A DNA stretch of 64,000 bases from a virus. The notes under the pieces were generated by a model, which saw only the letters and a program-made list of their open reading frames with translations, made no database searches and was not told the DNA's origin. Every line of letters starts with the position of its first letter. The first letter of the stretch is position 1. The stretch covers positions 1 through 64,000 of IMG/VR virus record IMGVR_UViG_3300035182_000826. One strand, written 5' to 3'. A program made the position numbers and the translations under genes. Shown here piece by piece: positions 3,898 to 53,700 of the stretch.

Positions 3898-4772
3898 CGA
3901 CTCAAGTTTTAGGGAAATACTCTTTCCTTGATATTCCAGATGTGAACGGGAGCGATGTGCTTCTGAATGGCGGAGGTGTTCCGACAATTTTGGCAGGTGC
4001 AGTTACTGCTCTACCTGCTGCAGGCACCACCGGGCGCCTTTATCTTGACACCACAAATTCAGTGTTCTATCGAGATAATGGAACGTCATGGGATAACATG
4101 ACAGCACTGGTTCAGTTGACGGGCACCCCAAATCAAATTAGCATCACACCAGCTGTAGTTGGCACACCAGCTAACATTGCGCTGGCCACAAATCCGACTC
4201 TGCCGGGTCTTCAAAAGGTGACAATTCCTGGTGGTGCCACGACTGATAGACCTGCTTCGCCTGTTGCGGGTGATTTTCGGTACAATAGCACCATCACAAA
4301 GCATGAGGGCTATAACGGGTCTTATTGGATTCCTTTCGGCAATGTCATTCAAGCTGTTACTGGTTTAATTCCAGCATCATCTGGAACAACCACTGTACCG
4401 CTTGATAATACCATTCCAACTTCAACTGAAGGGTGGCAAGTTTTCAGCAATACCGTAACTCCCATCTCAGCATCATCAAAGATGTTGATCATCTTCTCAA
4501 TCACTTGTTCCATGTCAGCTACTGGTACAATGATTGGATCAGTATTTGCTGGAACCACGAATATTGGGTCAGCTGCAGTGCTAAGACCGGCCACCAACGT
4601 CGGATCACAGATGACATTTTCGGTTCTTCACCAGCCAGGGTCCACAAGCCCAATTACATACTCGTTTAGATTTGGTGGATCAGCTGCTTCGACAACCTAT
4701 GTGAACCAAATTGGCACAACAACTCTTGGTGGCGCTCTCGCATCCAACTACACAATTCTAGAGATCCTATGA
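3894..4772 (+). CDS. Tail fibre protein
   Basis: 292 residues, rich in Thr, Gly, Ser and Ala. The N-terminal half has phrases typical of phage fibres: GTTGRLYLDTTNSVFYRDNG and DRPASPVAGDFRYNSTITKHEGYNG, a 'metadata-like' strand motif common in fibre proteins. The C-terminal half (from about residue 155) is a compact beta domain ending in SNYTILEIL. It is translationally coupled to both neighbours by ATGA overlaps. Receptor binding is inferred from composition and context, and no enzymatic motif is visible. Confidence 0.65.
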   Translation: MTTQVLGKYSFLDIPDVNGSDVLLNGGGVPTILAGAVTALPAAGTTGRLYLDTTNSVFYRDNGTSWDNMTALVQLTGTPNQISITPAVVGTPANIALATNPTLPGLQKVTIPGGATTDRPASPVAGDFRYNSTITKHEGYNGSYWIPFGNVIQAVTGLIPASSGTTTVPLDNTIPTSTEGWQVFSNTVTPISASSKMLIIFSITCSMSATGTMIGSVFAGTTNIGSAAVLRPATNVGSQMTFSVLHQPGSTSPITYSFRFGGSAASTTYVNQIGTTTLGGALASNYTILEIL

Positions 4773-8507: not shown

Positions 8508-8589
8508 AGAAACCGCTTGGCCCAAATCATACTATTACCTTGAGCGTCGTAAGTTGAGACAGCACAAAGAGTTAAGCGGCCGGGCATAG
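8494..8589 (+). CDS. Possible 31-aa frame, perhaps truncated by a repeat element
   Basis: ATG 8494 overlaps the end of the RNA ligase gene and follows a GGAG-like site. The frame reads MMRDEETAWPKSYYYLERR, then a basic stretch, and ends at TAG 8587-8589. The last codons lie within the start of a repeat element (TTAAGCG at 8571 onward), so a longer gene may have been cut off. Support is limited to position and composition. Confidence 0.25.
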   Translation: MMRDEETAWPKSYYYLERRKLRQHKELSGRA

Positions 8590-8680
8590 CCTCGGCGACA
8601 CCAGGCGACGCCGGCTCACCTCAGACATAACGGCCAATAAGTTATGCGCAAACGATAAAGGGCACCGGTTGGTGCCCTTT
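8571..8680 (+). repeat. Repeat element, terminator-ended variant (8.6-kb copy)
   Basis: From TTAAGCG (8571) the sequence follows the family seen at 22.6-24.5 kb. The left arm starts at 8594 with GGCGACAC, nine bases, then CCGGCTCAC. The conserved centre CAATAAGTTATGC follows. The usual right arm is absent and a terminator hairpin stands in its place. The nine inner-arm bases (CAGGCGACG) resemble the right-arm version of full copies, so this copy looks recombined. It lies between the RNA ligase operon end and the converging gene at 8824. Confidence 0.8.
8657..8680 (+). terminator. Rho-independent terminator after RNA ligase
   Basis: Perfect 10-bp stem, AAAGGGCACC at 8657-8666 and GGTGCCCTTT at 8671-8680, with a GGTT tetraloop, then ATTTG. 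The A and T flanks make it usable in both directions between convergent genes. The 22.7-kb repeat copy ends in a very similar hairpin. Confidence 0.8.
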
Positions 8681-8702
8681 ATTTGCGTAGTGCCTCGAGC
8701 TA

Positions 8703-8730
8703 TTCAACCCGCTATTCGTCGGCTAATGCG
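8703..8730 (+). repeat. Repeat core copy, 8.7 kb
   Basis: TTCAACCCGCTATTCG followed by TCGGCTAATGCG matches the 32-bp core of the 22.6-24.5 kb array except for one base near its start, and lacks the last four core bases. It lies 22 bp past the terminator. The rest of 8731-8823, up to the end of the minus-strand gene, shows nothing recognisable. Confidence 0.8.
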
Positions 8731-22030: not shown

Positions 22031-22269
22031 GTGATGAGCGCGTCCAAATGAGTGATCTTCCACATATCCCAGAACCGCATGATCTTGAGGACATTCGTTG
22101 GGGATACGACTCAGACGACATGGTGAACTACGGTAGCGACTGCTTTGAGGCTGGTCGCCAGATTGAACGAGCGAAGATCAGAATTGCGGAACTTGCGCTT
22201 AAGAAGCTCATGGATGAAAGAACCAGCATTGAGCATCATGTTCAAGCTATTCTGGATATGTTGAAATGA
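22027..22269 (+). CDS. Unknown small acidic protein
   Basis: 80 residues. Acidic N-terminus (DLEDIRWGYDSDDMVN), then a long helix from residue 40 (GRQIERAKIRIAELALKKLMDE) that could be a coiled coil. Coupled on both sides by ATGA overlaps. No family recognised. Confidence 0.5.
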   Translation: MSDERVQMSDLPHIPEPHDLEDIRWGYDSDDMVNYGSDCFEAGRQIERAKIRIAELALKKLMDERTSIEHHVQAILDMLK

Positions 22270-22547
22270 GACTGCGAAATCTAATCCTGTGTTTCAAGGA
22301 TCAATTGCCGATCAGGCGTTTCATCAAAAATTTCTGCATCACACGGAATGCATGGGGTCTTTTTCACAAGAACTCACATGTGAGCCAGGGTTCTGGAAAG
22401 CCGAAGGTGATGTACAACACGAAGGCCACGGCTGAGAAGGCTGCGCTCTCCATGAAGAAGAAGCACGGCTACCACTACAGTCCGTACAAGTGCTTGTGGT
22501 GCGATGGTTACCACATTGGTCGAAACAGAAGCAATAAGAGCCATTGA
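22266..22547 (+). CDS. Small Cys/His protein, putative zinc-binding
   Basis: 93 residues, basic. The C-terminal half KATAEKAALSMKKKHGYH then YKCLWCDGYHIGRN carries a CxxC plus His pattern that suggests a single zinc site. Similar small 'CxxCxxYHIGR' proteins are common in phages with no settled function; nucleic acid binding is a guess. Last gene of the operon, ended by the 22.7-kb repeat element and terminator. Confidence 0.55.
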   Translation: MRLRNLILCFKDQLPIRRFIKNFCITRNAWGLFHKNSHVSQGSGKPKVMYNTKATAEKAALSMKKKHGYHYSPYKCLWCDGYHIGRNRSNKSH

Positions 22548-22641
22548 GCTAAGTCAATGTTCTAGTTCACTAGATGAGCTGGTTCAAATGGCCATTTACA
22601 AAACAGCGCACATGTTTTGAGGGCACATAGAGCATCACCTC

Positions 22642-22729
22642 GGCGACACCGGTGAGGTCCAGCTCACACCGGCAGGCGCGAGCAATAAGTTATACACAGT
22701 CATTAAGGGGCACCCAACCGGTGCCCCTT
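22642..22729 (+). repeat. Repeat element, terminator-ended variant (22.7-kb copy)
   Basis: Left arm GGCGACACCGGTGAGG at 22642, then the centre CAATAAGTTATACACAG, then a terminator hairpin instead of the right arm. The same build is seen at 8.6 kb, in both cases just past the last plus-strand gene of an operon. Confidence 0.8.
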
Positions 22730-22733
22730 TTTC
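22705..22733 (+). terminator. Rho-independent terminator inside the repeat region
   Basis: Perfect 10-bp stem AAGGGGCACC (22705-22714) and GGTGCCCCTT (22720-22729), loop CAACC, then TTTC. Ends the operon of 21195-22547. Confidence 0.85.
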
Positions 22734-22940
22734 GCATTGAACCCGCTGGCGAGCACTGTGAGCAGCTGATCACCTCTCCAATGAAGAACCTATTGAACTC
22801 CGGCTTCACGGCAAATCTGATGATGTTGAACCCGCTATCTGTCGGCTAATGCGCTCTGTGTACGCCTCACCACTAAGAGCACCACCTAATTTGACACCTT
22901 TCTTAAGTGCAGCTCGCCTTAAGCGATAGAGCACAGCCTC

Positions 22941-23036
22941 GGCGACACCGGTGAGGCCCGGTGTGAGCCGGACGGTGCGGGCAATAAGTTATGCATAGCA
23001 CTTGGCCGGTGTGAGCCGGCGTCGCCTCGTGTCGCC
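22941..23036 (+). repeat. 96-bp palindromic element, copy with flipped left loop
   Basis: Arms begin with GGCGACAC and end with GTGTCGCC around the centre GCAATAAGTTATGCATAGCA. In the left arm the hairpin CCGG-CTCACA-CCGG of other copies reads CCGG-TGTGAG-CCGG, i.e. inverted, while the flanks are unchanged. Confidence 0.85.
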
Positions 23037-23416
23037 GGCTCACGTTGAACCCGCTATTCGTCGGCTAATGCGCTCTGCGCACACGCCGCACCACAAAGAA
23101 CTGATCACCCACTCCAATGAAGACTGATCACCCACTCCAATGAAGAACTTGTTGAAGAACTTGTTGAAGAATCCATTGAACCCGCTATTCGTCGGCTAAT
23201 GCGCTCTACGCACGCCGCACTGTGTGAGCGACTGATCACCCACTCCAATGAAGAATCCATTGAACTGATCACCTACGAATCCATTGAACCCGCTATCTGT
23301 CGGCTAATGCGCTCTATGGGCACCACACAAACAAAGAACACCTTACCACTAAGATCAACACCTAATTTGGCGCCTTTCTTAAGTGCAGTTCGCCATAAGC
23401 GATAGAGCACACCCTC

Positions 23417-23512
23417 GGCGACACCGGTGAGGTCCAGCTCACACCGGGCCTCACCACCAATAAGTTATGCATAGCACTTGGCCGGTGTGAGCCGGCGTCG
23501 CCTCGTGTCGCC
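23417..23512 (+). repeat. 96-bp palindromic element
   Basis: Full-length copy with a slightly altered left hairpin (CCAGCTCACACCGG), centre AATAAGTTATGCATAGCAC and right arm CCGGTGTGAGCCGG through GTGTCGCC. Confidence 0.85.
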
Positions 23513-23860
23513 GGATGATGTTGAACCCGCTATCTGTCGGCTAATGCGCTCTGCGCACACGCTGCACTGTGAGCAACTGGCCATCTCTCCAATGAAGAAC
23601 TTGTTGAAGAACCAATTGAAGAATCCATTGAACCCGCTATCTGTCGGCTAATGCGCTCTGCGCACACGCTGCACTGTGAGCAACTGGCCATCTCTCCAAT
23701 GAAGAACTTGTTGAAGAACCAATTGAAGAATCCATTGAACCCGCTATTCGTCGGCTAATGCGCTCTGTGTACGCAGCACCACTAAGAGCCCCTTCTAATT
23801 TGACACTTTCTCAAGTTCGGCACAAATGGCGGCCCACCTTAAGCGATAGAGCACAGCCTC

Positions 23861-23957
23861 GGCGACACCGGTGAGGTCCGGCTCACACCGGACAGTGCGG
23901 GCAATAAGTTATGCATAGCACATAGCTGGGGGTGAGCCGGCGTCGCCTCGTGTCGCC
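23861..23957 (+). repeat. 97-bp palindromic element
   Basis: Full copy. Left arm GGCGACAC, nine bases, CCGGCTCACACCGG; centre AATAAGTTATGCATAGCAC; right arm has GGGGTGAGCCGG in place of CCGGTGTGAGCCGG, so one right stem is degraded. Confidence 0.85.
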
Positions 23958-24034
23958 GGCCCGCGTTGAACCCGCTATTCGTCGGCTAATGCGCTCTGCG
24001 CACACGCCACACTGTGAGCAACTATGATCACCTC

Positions 24035-24120
24035 AATCCATTGGAAGAATCCATTGGAAGAATCCATTGGAAGAATCCATTGGAAGAATCCATTGGAAGA
24101 ATCCATTGGAAGAATCCATT
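24035..24120 (+). repeat. 13-bp tandem repeat, 6 full units plus a partial
   Basis: Unit AATCCATTGGAAG, exact in six consecutive copies (24035-24112), then AATCCATT leading straight into a core copy. The unit is an expansion of the short-spacer end (AATCCATTGAA). 13 is not a multiple of 3, which argues against coding. Confidence 0.95.
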
Positions 24121-24382
24121 GAACCCGCTATCTGTCGGCTAATGCGCTCTATGGGCACGCGCTCTGTGAGCAACTATGATCACCTCAATCCAATGAAGAA
24201 CCCATTGAAGAACTGATCACCTCAATCCAATGAAGAATCCGTTGAACCCGCCGGCTAATGCGCTCTATGGGCACACACTGTGAGCAGGGTACCAAAGGAG
24301 TTCCTAGCACCACCACCTAATTTGACACTTTCTCAAGTGCGACACAAATGGCGGCCCGCCTTAAGCGATAGAGCACACCCTC

Positions 24383-24478
24383 GGCGACACCGGTGAGGTC
24401 CGGCTCACACCGGACCTCACCGGTAATAAGTTATGCATAGCACATAGCCGGTGTGAGCCGGCGTCGCCTCGTGTCGCC
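24383..24478 (+). repeat. 96-bp palindromic element
   Basis: Full and well-preserved copy, the last in the array. Both arms and the centre match the 23861 copy closely, and the right arm has the intact CCGGTGTGAGCCGG. Confidence 0.85.
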
Positions 24479-24554
24479 GGCCCGCGTTGAACCCGCTATT
24501 CGTCGGCTACTGTGCTGCGCTCTCACAATGACTTTTTTGGGATCTTGCTTCTTT

Positions 24555-24562
24555 GTAAATAA
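24555..24562 (+). promoter_or_regulatory. Late-promoter box (GTAAATAA)
   Basis: GTAAATAA lies 31 bases ahead of ATG 24593, immediately after the repeat array. It would start the long late transcript for the giant structural proteins. Confidence 0.6.
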
Positions 24563-24592
24563 GAAACTTCAGTCAAGCAACGAACCAATCGT

Positions 24593-27500
24593 ATGGCAAA
24601 CAAGGACTACAAACTAGCTCATCGCGATCTCGTAAAATACATTCCAGAGCGCCTGAGAAATCTAGTGAACACCTCTCTGGTAGACAACCTGTTCAATAGA
24701 CACATGACTCACGATGAGTCTGTGCCATTGTTTGGTTATGTAGGACGTAAGCCAAGTTCTCCAGACGACACAACACCAGCGGTTCCACAAAACACGGTGT
24801 CTCGTGACGTGAATGCACTCATTCCAGTGTTCTCGTTTAAGAACGGTAAAGAGCTCATTGCCTTTACGGCGGAGGACGTTATTCGAAAAGCTGAGGTGTT
24901 GGGTGTTGATGCTGACCAAAGCACTTGGCTGTATTCACAGGCAAACAACTACGCGCCCCCAATTGACTTTGACAAGTTCACGAACTTCTTCAACTACTAC
25001 TGGGTTGGTCAGTCATTACCAAACTCTCCAATCCTGAGCTGGAATCCGACTATAGCGCCAGAGTACTATGTGATCGCTAAGCCAGCGATCACAGATCTTG
25101 ACAAGCTAAATGTTCGTTTAGGTACTACATCTCAAATCACCACGACTGGAACTGGTTTCTTGTCAATGACCTGGGTCGTGACGTTTACTGATGCATTGAA
25201 CTTCACTGTTCAAGCACAAGGTGCCGGTGCTGGACAGTTGCTTCCATCTGAGGTGACTCAGTCTTTCACTCTTCCAACGGTGACTGTTGAATCAACAAGT
25301 GTCTTCACTGTTGAGTTCACTGTAAGTCATCCACTACCACGAACACTGCTGTCATTCAAGATTCAGCGTGACCCAATCTATGATGGTGATGGGAACTGGA
25401 CAGGAAATGAAACTTTCACGGCTGGTGATACCTTCACCATTACTGCACCATTCATTTCATCGTCTTACACGTTGACGTCTGTCGTGTCAAGCGGTGTTAA
25501 GGGCAAGATCAACAACGTGAATTCACTAGACACCTTCCAAACCATTGATGGTGTGCAATTGGTTGTTGGTGACCGAGTCCTTGTTAAGAATCAAGGCGTC
25601 AGCGCTGAGAATGGCATCTACATTGTCGCAGCCGGTGCATGGACCCGCGCTGCCGATTTCGCTGATCCATCCACAACTCTTACTGGTTCACGAGTTTATG
25701 TGACTAGTGGATTAGTGAATGCTGGTGTATTGTTCATCTCATCAGACACCTATGAGTTCAATCCAGCTGGCACTCAGAACAACACAAATGATTGGCAAGA
25801 GCACAACTATTGGATGACGAGTGATGAGGCGGTAGCCGCCGGGTTTGATGTGTCTACACTTGTTCAGGCCACGCGTCCAATCATTGAGTTCTCTGCGAAC
25901 GTAAGACTGAACGGCTTTGTGCAGAACGGCGTTCCGTCTGACGCCGGCACCGCGTACACACAATACAAGACTGAGTTCAATCAAGTTCCGCTGTTTGATC
26001 TGTACAGATATGATGGAACCCATGCAAAGCTGGTCTCGCCGTTGTTCTTCTACGTTGAGGACCCGACAGCTGACATCGACCCAGCTCTTCAGCGCCGCAC
26101 AAAGATTTCATCCAATGGAAGCTCAGACTTTTTGTTCTCACATGGCTTTGAGGATGATAATGGAAACCTGCTGTTCTGCAAGTACAAGGATGGTTCACTG
26201 AAGACCATTTGGCATGCTGGTTATGACACCCCAACAATCTCGAACACGAGTTTTAACGGTAATGGAAATGGCACAATTTCAGTTCAGCCGAGCACAAATG
26301 CATTTGCTGCTCAACAGATCTGGACATTTACGGCAACTGGTCCAACGTCATTTACTGTTGTTGGTTCAAAGAACGCTGAGCTTCCAGTTCCTTATCAAAC
26401 TGCTACAGTTGGTACACAGTACGACAACACACTGATCAAGGCCTTGATCACTGCTGGCTCAACGCCATTTGAAGCTGGAGATGTGTTCACTGTTCAATTT
26501 GGCAATCTTGAAACTACAAGGTACGTTTACCGTTCAGCTGATGCAAGAAGCATGTTTGATCTTTTTGGCGGACCAACAGCTGACACTGAAGGAGTTGGCG
26601 CCTGGCTTACACCACGCATGTTCTACAACAACGTGGCTGCTGTGAACAACGGCGAGATTCCAGAAGGCACGATCTACTCACACTTTAGGGGAATTTTGGC
26701 AAATCAAGCGGCCGGTAATATTGACAACGCCTTCGGTGGATCAATCAAGCTCTGGGGTGAGCAAACAAATCTGCTCGTGTCGCTGTTGATGCAACGTGAT
26801 TTGACACCTATCTCAATGATTGATTTTGCACAGAATCAATATGAGGTAGCGCTGAACGCGATCATTGACATCTTCTGCCAAAAGTTCCCTTCGTACGTCA
26901 GCACAAACACAATCGACACAAGCTCACTGGTAAGCTACATTCTAGCAGTAAGAGCCGCTGATATGGATGTGAAGAAAGTGCTGTATGACACAACAGCCAG
27001 TGTCATTGGTTTCCCAGTCACCTTGCCTGCGATGGGGGTTACCCCATTAGCTGTGCCAGGATATGTTTTTGACAATGAACTGGGCGCTACCGTCTTCAGA
27101 CACCATGACGGGCATCTGAGCTCCATCTTTACGATGTCGCAGTCATTCCTTGACAGGATGGTGACAGCGAAGACCACTGTCCTACGTTCAGACGGCTCAA
27201 CAACTCCTGCATTTGGCTCATACACAACAACAATGCCAGCTTCACCATACCGTGGTGAGTTCTGGCTGTACCCACAGCAATCAGGTGTCCAGTTCCGAAT
27301 GTTCAACGTGCTTGGCGACACTTCAATTGCGCCAACACCTACAGCAACAGGTGATTTCTGGTATGACAGACCAAATGGAACTCTCTATGTTTGGGATGGC
27401 GTATCGTGGGCAACCACCACGAACATGTCTGCTGCATGGGTCTCAATTGACCCAGCAGACATGTTGAATGATGTCCTGCTTGAGATTGAAACGCGGCTGT

Positions 27501-49191: not shown

Positions 49192-50115
49192 ATGCTGAAT
49201 GATCCTAAAACCTACACGTATTCACCACGGTATGCCGGTGGTGACGTGAAGTTGCTTACCAGATCTAGTCGTAGATCAAAGCTGCTGGCTGGTGGTACGT
49301 ACTTCAGGTCTGTTCAGCGTGGTGAGCTATCGAACTTGATTAGCTGTGCTGTGCTCGAGGACGGGAACACCGGCGTGTTCATTCAGGTTCATGATGTGTT
49401 GAACTCGGCTGAAATGGTGACTCTGACTGGATTGAGCGCTCAAGTTCAAGTGCTGAGTTTTGATAGACCATTTGATAATGGGTATGAGACAGGCGTCTTA
49501 ATTCAAAAGAGTGGTGGTGAGGTGCGCGCACACATAATACGCATTAGGTGGCAGATAGCGGGTTCAACACTCACGTTCACATCAGAGACCATCACTGATC
49601 TTGGAACTATTCAGCTAAAGCAGTTGAACACTATTGGTGGAGTGCGATTTACCTTGTCAAACACCGCCTGGTCAGATGGTGACTCGCTTATGATTCATGC
49701 AAGATCGCAGTACACCATGCTGTCACAAATCACCGTGCAGGTAACTGACCCAGTCACTTCTGTTGTTACGCCAGTGACAGGCTGGAATATTGGCGCGCTT
49801 AGATCAGCATTGGCTAATTCGGCTACCACATGGGTAAAGATGCCTTCGCGTGGAACGACACAGACGCCAGCAACACCAGAGGATGTGTTAGACACAGGGG
49901 TGGATGAAGTTGTTATGACGGCGTTTCAGAAGACGTACATGAACGGTGGAGATGGCTTGCCAGCATCTCCTGATCTTGTTCTGACTGGCCCTGAACGTGC
50001 GCTGATTCACTTGAACTATGCTGAGTTAGATGACGGCTCACTAGGTGAGCACAACAAGGTGTACGAGTGGGTGGGTGAGTCATCTGCAGCCGGCTCATGG
50101 CAGATCTATGCTTAA
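49192..50115 (+). CDS. Unknown structural protein next to PAAR gene
   Basis: 307 residues, 2 bases after the PAAR gene. Residues 1-190 are beta-rich (NLISCAVLEDGNTGVFIQVH). Residues 250-307 have AFQKTYMNGGDGLPASPDLVLTG and an aromatic end (YEWVGESSAAGSWQIYA). No family recognised; a tail-tip role follows from context. At 49540-49568 the gene contains a reverse-oriented copy of the dispersed repeat core (read as RIRWQIAGST), so part of it is related to the non-coding repeats nearby. Confidence 0.55.
   Translation: MLNDPKTYTYSPRYAGGDVKLLTRSSRRSKLLAGGTYFRSVQRGELSNLISCAVLEDGNTGVFIQVHDVLNSAEMVTLTGLSAQVQVLSFDRPFDNGYETGVLIQKSGGEVRAHIIRIRWQIAGSTLTFTSETITDLGTIQLKQLNTIGGVRFTLSNTAWSDGDSLMIHARSQYTMLSQITVQVTDPVTSVVTPVTGWNIGALRSALANSATTWVKMPSRGTTQTPATPEDVLDTGVDEVVMTAFQKTYMNGGDGLPASPDLVLTGPERALIHLNYAELDDGSLGEHNKVYEWVGESSAAGSWQIYA
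49540..49568 (-). repeat. Repeat core copy inside a coding region
   Basis: On the minus strand GTTGAACCCGCTATCTG is followed by TAATGCG after six bases. By my hand alignment 26 of 29 positions agree with the array core (three substitutions). The copy keeps the frame of the host gene. Confidence 0.75.
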
Positions 50116-50118
50116 CCG

Positions 50119-50204
50119 GGTGTCGCCGGCTCACACCAAAATGCTCACCTATAGAACTTTATGTATTTTGAGACCGGTGTGAGCCGGGCCTCACCGGTGT
50201 CGCC
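50119..50204 (-). repeat. Palindromic element, inverted copy
   Basis: A diverged copy lies in reverse orientation directly after the stop at 50115: arms GGTGTCGCCGGCTCACACC and ACCGGTGTGAGCC through GGTGTCGCC, then GAGGGTGT and GCTTAAGG, the reverse of the usual left flank. The centre has drifted to an AT-rich sequence. The stretch 50220-50310 shows nothing recognisable. Confidence 0.7.
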
Positions 50205-50387
50205 GAGGGTGTACCCCGCTTAAGGTCGCCAGTTTCTGAGAAGGTGGCGCTTAGGAAGGAAGCACTGCGTTGCAGTTGCTTTATTGGCTGAACTGGCGTA
50301 CGCCTCACCACAAAGAACACCTTCTAATTTGACACCTTTAAGTGCGGCACAAATGGCGCCCCACCTTAAGCGATAGAGCACACCCTC

Positions 50388-50483
50388 GGCGACACCGGTG
50401 AGGTCCGGCTCACACCGGCTAAGTGCTGTGCATAACTTATTGGCTGACCTGTCTGGTTTGAGCCGGCGTCGCCTCGTGTCGCC
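50388..50483 (+). repeat. 96-bp palindromic element with inverted centre
   Basis: Flanks (TTAAGCGATAGAG before, TGATGTTGAACCC after) and both arms keep the array orientation, but the centre reads AAGTGCTGTGCATAACTTAT, the reverse complement of the form at 23417 (one base different). Total length is still 96 bp. An AATTTGACACC segment precedes it at about 50327. Confidence 0.85.
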
Positions 50484-50491
50484 GGATGATG

Positions 50492-50523
50492 TTGAACCCG
50501 CTATCTGTCGGCTAATGCGCTCT
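50492..50523 (+). repeat. Repeat core copy, 50.5 kb
   Basis: A complete core of the ATCTGT form, in the same position relative to the 96-bp element as in the array. It abuts the relic gene at 50522. Confidence 0.9.
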
Positions 50524-50706
50524 ATGGGCACGCACTGTGAATGAAGATCGTGCAAATTCGTTTCTTTGCCTTTGCAATCAACTTACCATCGTGGTAGAAG
50601 TCAGGTTGCGTAGGCCTGGTTGGACGCGGCCTCACCTTTTGATCAAGGACCGATGATGCAATTGTCACTTCACCTTTAGGAAATGGCCGGACATCTTTGT
50701 AGAGAT
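50522..50706 (-). pseudogene. Relic of a YARDVLxGPFPAGE-type repeat protein
   Basis: Downstream of the gp6-like stop, one minus-strand frame reads NLYKDVRPFPKGEVTIASS, a Pro/Arg-rich linker, then PDFYHDGKLIAKAK and stops at 50522. This matches a repeat unit (DVLHGPFPKGEDTIA) and the C-terminus (ADFYYDGKLVGNK) of the proteins at 58317 and 38292. There is no start codon in frame before the upstream stop inside gp6, so it looks like a truncated remnant, cut next to a repeat core. Confidence 0.6.
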
Positions 50707-53700
50707 TTACTTCACCTGTCTGATAACGGTTGATGTAAGCGCATCCACAATTTCAATGTCAGAGAGCTGTGCGCTTGAGAGCAGAATTTCATCAAACCCA
50801 CTTTCAACAGTGAAAAGGTCTCCAAAGGAGTTTGTTCCATATAGTGGAACCAACACAACGGACGCGACATCTACTGGCAGACGCTGGTGCATCAGTGACA
50901 ACAGATCAGTTGCATAGAACGTCTCACCGAAATCCCAATTCTTGATGTCAAAGTACGTGTTCACTACGTACAGCAGCTCTTCCTTGATGCGTTCATCGGT
51001 CAAGGTGCTTGATTGTGTCTTCACGACCTTGAACTTGGCTCTGTACTGAGGCTCAGCCAGTGATCCAAACAAGAGTTTGAACTTGCCAGAGTGAAGAACC
51101 ATTGTGTCGCTCATCATTTTGTTCTTCAATAGCGCTGAGTACGAGGTCTTTAGTTCAAGAGGAGTTGGCACATCTGGGGCGCTCGATTGCTCACCATTGA
51201 TGTATGAAACCATGCCGTCATAGTACCCCTGTGTAATCAGGTAAGCATCATGAATGTTCGTTGGTGAAGGATCAATCATGTTCGTGTATGGTGCAAAGTG
51301 CTGCCACATGAAGTCAAGACCGGTGTCATCACTTGAGATGGCTGGCATGCGCTGTCTTCTACCGAACACGGTTCCGTCTGTGCCCCATGCGGTAAACGAG
51401 CCGGCGCTCACACCACTGAATGCAGCCGCGGCCGTTGCAATGTCAGTGCTTGAGGTCAATAGGGTGATCGTTGAGGATGAAGGCTCAATCACGTAGTACT
51501 CGTAGCTACCAGCACTGAATGTCTCAAACTGCAACATGTAGTCTGGTGTCAAATCGCCAGAAGTGCTTGTTTGCAACATGTCACTTGGCATGATTTGGAG
51601 CTTATTGAAGTTTGTGACGCCGGTGCTGTCTTTGATTGGTCCTACCACATCATAGATCTGGTTCTTTTTCAAGACTGTGTTGTTCACATCGAGATTAGAG
51701 CGAAGGATCTTGATGTTGTCAAACACCCGCTTTTGAGTGTCATTGTCAATGAGTTGATCAACTTCATTGTACCAGAAGTTTGTTGTGTTAGATTCAACTG
51801 CCAATGACAAGTTCCGATAGTGGATTTCATAGCCAACGGATAGCTTCTTGATGAAAATCAACCAGCTGTATTGAGTGACATCTTGCGTGAACAAGAGCTC
51901 TTGCCCAACTGAAATCGTTCCACCAGCAAAATCTGGGAGCTGTGAGTACCCTAGGATCTCCCACCAACCGTTTAGATTGATCACTCCCGTGCTGTTGTAG
52001 TTCACATGATAAGCTGACGTGCGAGGTGTCAACACGCCATTGATAGTGTCAATCACGAAAGCGTCACCAGGTTCAAATGGAACACTACCAGCTGTAATCG
52101 TGAAGAAGCTCACAGATGTTTGGCTGCCTGGAGGTTGAACTTGGTATGTGTTGCCAACGACGCCGGTACTCAGTGTGCCCTGAATGCTTGAGCGCACATA
52201 GAAGGTTTCACCGTCAGCCGCGATTTCAATCGTCCACACGTCTGCATTTGGGACAGTTGTTAGGACACCACCAACGTAAGTTGTGTAAGTGCCGTTGATT
52301 ATCGCAGCATCTGTTGTTGACAATGTCAACGTACCAGAGCCAATGCCAAGCATGGTTCTATTGAACTTCAGTGCGAAGTAATCTTGTTCAGCAATTGGCT
52401 GCAGCCCAGAGCCAACGTCACCAGGTGGATACTTTGTAACACCGTCAATTGTGCGAGGCACAGTAGATTGATAGATCCGTGAGTCATCCTTTGGATAGAG
52501 CGCTGGGTCAGGAATCACGGCCCAAATCTGATTGTTCGTGCCTTCGACGTAGGAAAGTGGTTCACCATACCAGTGTCTGTCAATCAGACCTTGCATGGCG
52601 GTTTTTTCTTTCAATGATCCATCTGGAGTTGTACCGTCAATCAGCTTCACGTAACCATTTGATGATGAGAACAATCCAGACCTGTTGTCCTCAATGAAGG
52701 AGGTTCTTGGCGTTGACACAACACCGACAGTTGCAGCATCTGTAGCAGACAAGTGAGTAAGCGCTGTGATCATTCCATTTGTCGACAACAGTGGTTCGAT
52801 CACAGAGTCGATAAGGGCTTGGCCAGAAACCGTGGTCGTCAGTGAGTCAAGACCAAGCTCATATCGCGTCACCAAATCATCGCCGAACAGCTTCACATTT
52901 TCATATGACCCAGATGCATCGTTCCAGTCGATGTACTTTGGTTGGCCAGCAAAGGTTCTGTTGATCGTCTTCAACCGAAGGATTGATGGGTCCTTCAACA
53001 GGAACGTGTTGTAGTCCTGTCCATTCACCATTCGGTTCTGTGAATAGTAAGTGGCTGGAGCTGATTGTCTGATGTGTTCAATCGTTTCAGAGCCAGAGCC
53101 GTTCTGAAGAGTAGAGCACAAGCTGAACGTGAATGTGCACGTCTCGCTGTTGCCAGTGCTTGACTGATAAGTCACTGGCATTGCCGTGTTCACAATCTTG
53201 TTCTTTGCGATGACAATTGATCGGTTAATCGACTGTCTCATCCAAAATCTGAACAACCCCTGCGGCATATCAGCAAAGTCGCCATCACCGAACAGAACTG
53301 AAATCTGATCATTTTCGAGAGTGTCAACTTCGTACTTTGCACGAGTGGTTCTGTCAGTGTTGAAGATCAAGTTCTGTTCACTGATAGTGTCTACTTGAGC
53401 CCATCTTGCGGCAATGTCACCGTTTGAATTTACCTGCTGAACCCACACGTCAGTGTCATTCACGTTGTTTGGCAGGAATGTCAACTTACGGTTTGGTAAC
53501 TTGTCTTTGATGTTCAGATCAACCTTTGTCAGGGTGCCCTGCTTTGTGTAGCCAAGGAAGCCCGTGTAGTCAGACCCATCACCAATACCGTCATCAGCGT
53601 ATAAGATTGAGAACGAAGCTGATAGATCTGGCTCACGTTCAAATGGGCCATCTGCATCAAGATCAGCCGGAACTAGTTCCATCGGAAAGCTGTCCAGCCC

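Follow-up and report, generated by a model that had tools for sequence, protein, structure and literature searches.

Just upstream of a large virion gene, the phage DNA analysed here carries a long array of direct repeats interspersed with spacers, and the question it raises is what such an array does and which of its parts matters. The stretch of DNA analysed, referred to as the window, comprises bases 1–64,000 of a 161,452-bp virus record. The proteins of the record include a T4-type baseplate wedge, a DNA polymerase, a DnaB-like helicase and large virion proteins, and judged from these proteins the source is a jumbo myovirus. Because close relatives in IMG/VR reach up to 291–345 kb, the record probably represents about half a genome. 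The fuller genomes of the clade are three near-complete ones (310–343 kb) and a 235-kb partial record, G008; all genomes used are metagenomic except for the Campylobacter phages and other named isolates, and gene calls throughout are simple ORF calls.

The array extends over positions 22629–24530 on the plus strand, with a small plus-strand gene on one side and the 2893-aa virion gene just downstream. The eleven direct core repeats described in the initial annotation, including one with a 7-base deletion and one with a diverged end, were reproduced exactly. All on the plus strand, these are core 1 (22826–22857, a CTATCTG variant), core 2 (23045–23076, a CTATTCG variant), cores 3 to 9 (23176–23207, 23284–23315, 23521–23552, 23628–23659, 23735–23766, 23966–23997 and 24119–24150), core 10 (24242–24266), in which the 7-base deletion has cost the conserved motif its 5′ half, and core 11 (24487–24518), which has diverged at its 3′ end. 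Nine cores have the full length of 32 bp, compared to a chance expectation of 0.00 in 100 shuffles, indicating that the array is real. Reading the array also bore out the two spacer classes. Four long spacers each contain a palindromic element of ~96–106 bp (22937–23038, 23410–23515, 23857–23959 and 24376–24480, plus strand), with fold z values as low as −7.1 (DNA fold z −4.7 for the second copy and −7.1 for the fourth), and the short spacers of 75–76 bp are mutually related and give rise to 107/108-bp units. One spacer holds a 13-bp tandem repeat, AATCCATTGGAAG, present six times at about 24035–24112 (plus strand), which is a trace of slippage. At the left end (22638–22735, plus strand), half a palindromic element comes first, then an ordinary hairpin resembling an intrinsic terminator, and a T-run; terminator calling across 22200–24800 called none, yet a hairpin with a T-run is visible at 22709–22733. 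Small ORFs within short spacers (e.g. MKNLLKNQLKNPLNPLSVG*) were rejected as candidates, since they lack a conserved start codon and their frame is interrupted by the 13-bp repeats and by the 7-base deletion.

Parts of the array recur in the window, as had been annotated for 8.6 kb and 50.1–50.5 kb. At 8.57–8.73 kb (8570–8730, plus strand) there is a single site with its motif at 8712, half a palindromic element and a terminator-like hairpin; at 50.11–50.54 kb (50110–50540, plus strand), palindromic elements and one core (50492–50523) lie 3′ of the baseplate wedge gene. A single motif copy, CTATCTGCCACCTAATGC, is located on the minus strand at 49541–49558, inside and antisense to ORF 49192–50115; seven relatives have orthologous sites within the gene. 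When the full record was searched for the core and the palindromic element, more arrays as well as single elements were found beyond the window, the arrays at 92.37–93.62 kb (minus strand), 121.5–122.46 kb (plus strand) and 156.18–156.67 kb (minus strand) of the record. The suggestion that these parts always mark the end of a plus-strand operon is correct within the window, but elsewhere in the record arrays are antisense to the flanking genes, and across the clade the orientation is random. As to a possible assembly artefact, the separate assembly L014 (14,404 bp at 99.99% to the record) reproduces the 156-kb array, a support that extends to that array and not to the one in the window. In two palindrome copies (window 50405–50443 and record 93176–93214) the inner segment is inverted relative to the arms, as if flipped between inverted repeats. 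Half palindromic elements are joined to differing intrinsic-terminator-like hairpins at 22709–22735 and 8660–8687 of the window and at 4540–4567 of contig L020 (record about 109,026–109,053). The linker before these fused hairpins is shared and AATAAGTTAT-like or AAATAAACTG-like, and the difference of the hairpins after a common linker suggests modular hairpin swapping.

Comparison of the element with relatives by BLAST left only short surviving pieces. At the centre of the core, ~18 bp (CTATYTGYCRNCTAATGC) recur in nine relatives with unrelated flanking DNA and are nearly invariant among genomes that otherwise have no intergenic sequence in common. The site has the consensus (C/T)TATYTGYCRNCTAATGC and is more weakly conserved as far as about +25, and the information profile of the motif has sharp edges and a width of about 27 bp. 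The motif takes the form CTATCTGTCAGCTAATGC in G001, CTATYTGTCAACTAATGC in G002 and CTATTTGTCACCTAATGC in G003, and variants are found in G012, G006 and G004, the last with four identical sites of the form TTATTTGCCCCATAATGCC. Copy numbers are 11 in G001, 9 in G002, 8 each in G003 and G008, 4 each in G016 and G004, and 3 each in G014 and G012, with 17 copies in five arrays in G006. In G003 and G002 the motif was found without prior knowledge as the top dispersed 14-mer of the whole genome, and as a control, the reversed motif pattern had zero matches in 30 records. Given that relatives carry the motif without the palindrome, it appears to be the motif that is conserved for its function, with the spacers as lineage-specific padding; the initial annotation, in which 32-bp core and 96-bp palindrome formed a single unit, is thus not upheld on this point.

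Searches beyond the clade gave little. None of 50,697 phage records matched the array, and the core pattern had 0 matches in 84,980 prokaryote species genomes; a repeat family derived from the host was not encountered, and the statement that no described family has this layout holds for everything searched. A 19-mer scan of 2.9 million viral contigs returned 21 stretches, mostly from records already in this clade; the remaining stretches, not separately classified, come from metagenomes that also yielded baseplate-gene relatives. Scanning the viral contigs with CTCGGCGACACCGGTGAGG of the palindrome detected, besides contigs of the same virus, further contigs, of which the three inspected (L015, L016 and L018) are unrelated high-GC phage-like sequences and were dismissed as chance matches. 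In the cultured phages XacN1, RAS14, Paride, GAP32, Phosso and XbC2, motif matches were not above the reversed-pattern control, and exact k-mers revealed no comparable dispersed motif in RAS14. Since none of these distant cultured relatives shows such a motif, it currently has no laboratory phage.

To describe the distribution of the sites along the genomes, we used tests of spacing and position that were devised after the pattern had been seen, and the results hold across several genomes. The three near-complete genomes have roughly 8–11 loci per 310–343 kb, on average one per ~35 kb, and G008 has eight sites. Compared to random intergenic positions, the sites are evenly spaced, with a coefficient of variation (CV) of the gaps of 0.27–0.30 and P values of 0.0001, 0.0008, 0.0009 and 0.0021 in G001, G002, G003 and G008, respectively; the effect is marginal in G000 (P = 0.02) and not significant in the fragmentary G006 and G016. 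Mapping through orthologous genes placed 8 of the 9 G002 sites within 3 kb of a site in G003 (null 18%, P = 0.008), and orthologous positions were found for 7/11 sites from G001 to G003, 8/11 from G001 to G002 and 6/8 from G008 to G002, with only partial agreement between G000 or G006 and the other genomes. The shared positions could partly be due to inheritance. Some sites in orthologous regions are displaced by one gene or inverted and the region still holds one site, which suggests selection for a site per region rather than for an exact position.

The sites are indifferent to the direction of transcription. Relative to co-directional neighbours, 16 are sense and 17 antisense in ten genomes (P = 1), and every near-complete genome has sites on both strands (5+/6−, 6+/3− and 5+/3−). 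They are also strongly intergenic, with 15 of 61 located in ORFs of at least 80 aa compared to a coding fraction of 91% (P = 3e-35). Given the random orientation and the avoidance of coding sequence, promoters, terminators, stoperators and RNA elements no longer serve as main explanations. The GC skew does not switch at the sites, so that fixed bidirectional origins find no support in it.

The in-gene site of the window allows selection on DNA to be separated from selection on protein. The gene of ~300 aa that adjoins the baseplate cluster and carries the antisense site (window ORF 49192–50115) is fast-evolving, with 32–47% identity across eight genomes, and in its variable loop the codons GGC-ATT-AGG-TGG-CAR-ATA are kept, including AGG and ATA, codons that are as a rule uncommon in genomes of such base composition. 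The loop residues encoded in G004 and G012 change exactly as the motif variant of the respective genome requires, and in the G006 orthologue, which lacks the site at this place, the loop residues are unrelated, indicating that the DNA site is kept and not the protein. Across the clade, similarity is higher among the sites of a genome (0.864) than from one genome to another (0.679; P = 0.0005 by permutation), which fits a trans-acting reader with drifting specificity, one co-evolving reader per genome. Gene conversion could produce the same similarity; in the window phage, however, the in-gene copy has a GCCACC centre, as do relatives at the same place, compared to GTCGGC in its arrays, so that gene conversion is not complete.

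Arrays are found in more than one lineage. Sites have been expanded into arrays of 3–11 motif units (3–4 in G006) in both the window phage and G006; spacers and unit lengths of the two are unrelated, and each has one array just upstream of a homologous virion gene of ~2900 aa, where G001 has a single site. A more distant relative, G007 (164 kb), has CCTTAGTCTGTCAGTTTTCGTAG-core arrays of its own with unrelated AT-rich spacers at 0.1–1.0, 61.8–63.2, 99.4–100.2 and 140.8–141.1 kb, that is, 37–62 kb apart and one of them directly 3′ of a baseplate gene; it is possible that this core is related to the clade motif. The slippage recorded by the 13-bp repeat and the inversions inside palindromes make the arrays look like a secondary amplification of a functional site.

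Conservation of the motif, its even spacing and conserved positions, the independence from transcription, the co-variation within genomes and the DNA-level selection inside a gene together suggest, with a probability of about 50%, that the window array represents a cluster, amplified locally, of a double-stranded DNA site that occurs dispersed over the genomes of the whole clade and is read by a trans-acting protein. We infer that every site would be bound by such a protein, probably encoded by the phage, and that the arrays of the window phage, G006 and perhaps G007 would be clusters raising local occupancy, having grown by tandem duplication and slippage along with lineage-specific hairpin spacers. 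As for the purpose, the most likely use, which is speculative, would be a division of the genome into ~35-kb domains for the organisation or segregation of replicating DNA, or else a set of dispersed replication or loading sites. In its fuller form, which we regard as tentative and judge from sequence patterns, a phage-encoded protein might bind ~10 evenly spaced, orientation-neutral sites and define ~35-kb domains of a DNA of 300+ kb for compaction, segregation or ordered replication, and some lineages may have turned each site into a centromere-like array. Of the functions first listed for the array, a replication, packaging or recombination-type DNA site comes nearest, with the specific role remaining our extrapolation. 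If a protein reads the sites, they would be direct sequence evidence for large-scale genome organisation in jumbo phages, a question that is otherwise hard to approach.

Other readings account for part of these observations. Dispersed replication origins, or sites where a primosome or initiator is loaded at several places per genome, would match the even spacing of about 20–65 kb, the conserved positions, the iteron-like direct-repeat arrays and the independence of orientation, but the absence of a GC-skew switch at the sites and array units that lie 100–350 bp apart and out of helical register render this explanation rather unlikely. It is less likely still that a phage nickase or a packaging-linked enzyme cuts at the motif, as in T5-, phiKMV- and tf-like phages: the dozen or so copies of a short nick motif in known phage groups resemble the clade sites in count per genome and in group-wide conservation, but known nick motifs occupy a single strand and those of the Rembedalsseter group lie unevenly and mostly within genes, whereas the clade motif occurs on both strands, mostly between genes and evenly. 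Our guess at the order of roles is domain organisation, then dispersed replication sites, then nicking sites. That the repeats are recombination or module-shuffling sequences, or a copying MITE-like element with no function in the site itself, is improbable. The tandem growth, the 13-bp slippage and the inverted inner palindrome segments in the arrays speak for such a process, as do the rearranged modules between repeat regions in Campylobacter group II phages, and this lineage may owe its palindromic spacers to it. Selfish copies, however, would not retain a motif without the surrounding element, at orthologous positions, with even spacing and under codon constraint, and the non-autonomous mobile element initially considered is disfavoured as the core explanation, the motif being common to relatives that share no flanks.

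Control of transcription or of RNA finds the least room. Operator sites for a repressor, of the stoperator type, would be asymmetric, dispersed and intergenic like the motif, and about 10–25 in number, as in cluster A mycobacteriophages, but genuine stoperators follow transcription, and a motif that is oriented 16:17 and flips at orthologous loci makes this reading very improbable. We consider an RNA-level element, such as a terminator, a 3′-end stabiliser or a processed RNA, the least probable of all. A strong hairpin precedes the motif on its 5′ side at 36% of sites compared to 19% of random intergenic stretches, and intrinsic-terminator-like hairpins are attached to two copies in the window; such hairpins lie near the motif because operon ends are where intergenic space is found. 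Half of the sites are antisense to their neighbours (16 sense, 17 antisense), one family of in-gene sites runs antisense to the coding sequence, orientation flips, and the core itself does not fold, which also argues against the RNA-processing or termination structure of the initial annotation. An Rfam search gave no match above the gathering score and one sub-threshold match.

Dispersed short sites are known in phage genomes, among them stoperators, nick motifs and the repeats of Campylobacter phages. To our knowledge, no described set of sites combines even spacing with indifference to transcription, conserved positions and matching variants within a genome. The closest analogue are the Campylobacter group II phages CP21, CP220 and CPt10, likewise T4-related myoviruses, whose repeat regions RR1–RR4 were interpreted as recombination targets (PMC4546147). 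As checked on HE815464, these regions resemble the clade arrays in being mostly extragenic, about 1–3 kb long and built of short units with an invariant core; they separate genome stretches of 28–55 kb, with extra single units elsewhere, and the clade arrays separate modules in the same manner. By contrast, their core AAACTTAAAGCAA and their units of 72–86 bp (read out for CP21) gave no convincing alignment with CTATYTGYCRNCTAATGC, arms of both orientations occur in one array, and a clade-wide version with evenly spaced single sites has not been described for them. Since core and units differ, the clade system works like the Campylobacter arrangement without demonstrable membership. The clade sites would also allow the Campylobacter repeat regions to be read as functional sites rather than recombination debris. 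Cluster A stoperators, which follow transcription and lose function when reversed (PMC9283540), share with the clade sites their short, asymmetric form and dispersal in short intergenic spaces, and are read by one phage protein; their orientation sets them apart. Nick motifs of tf (14 sites, TACTRTGMC), Rembedalsseter, phiKMV-like phages and T5 (PMC3517423, PMC11780129) are likewise conserved across a phage group in a dozen or so short copies, but lie on one strand and, in the Rembedalsseter group, cluster at one genome end, unlike the clade sites. In Escherichia coli, MatP organises a chromosome domain through 23 copies of the 13-bp matS over 800 kb (PMC3330122). This density, ~1 per 35 kb in the Ter domain, is close to that of the clade sites, which is why a domain-organising role is our leading guess, but matS has a different sequence and serves one domain of a bacterial chromosome. 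matS is a palindrome. Plasmid and phage centromeres (ParB-parS, sopC, N15) are direct-repeat arrays, with dispersed copies of the binding site in N15.

The putative reader was sought among phage proteins. Although centromeres share direct-repeat arrays or dispersed sites with the clade, the ParB family (PF02195) was found in 0 of 9 clade records, and tyrosine recombinases (PF00589) in 0 of 6 records, with control genomes positive in both searches. Tus (PF05472) was found in 0 of 9 phage records in a search of phage-encoded proteins; a likeness of the motif to TATGTTGTAACTAAAG, which we take to be a Ter-like sequence, was rejected, the match being offset by one base and no phage-encoded Tus being found. 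A search for the MreB-like family gave no match, a scan of clade-specific proteins gave no clear DNA-binding candidate, and the proteins whose similarity tracks the motif variant shared by G000 and G016 are from tail-region genes only. As a 30-bp duplex, the motif itself is a simple bait for the protein, for which the variants of the individual genomes serve as matched and mismatched controls.

Several relatives contain further dispersed words. G001 (342 kb) has a separate 20-bp element, GGCGTCGCCTCGTGTCGCCG, in ~15 copies (e.g. at 51521, 83874, 101814, 189770 and 278080), often without the motif and shared with the palindrome of the window phage. G006 has another dispersed 14-mer, GTAACAAAGTGTAA, at six loci (about 9, 36, 45, 51, 106 and 170 kb). 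The dispersed words GAGTAATTATATCACAG and AAAAGTACACACTTT of G005 (345 kb) lie nearly all on one strand and are probably promoters, and the many CTACACACATCAACCACGGAG-like words at 0–25 kb of Stenotrophomonas phage RAS14 (OP752703) are probably early promoters or leader sequences.
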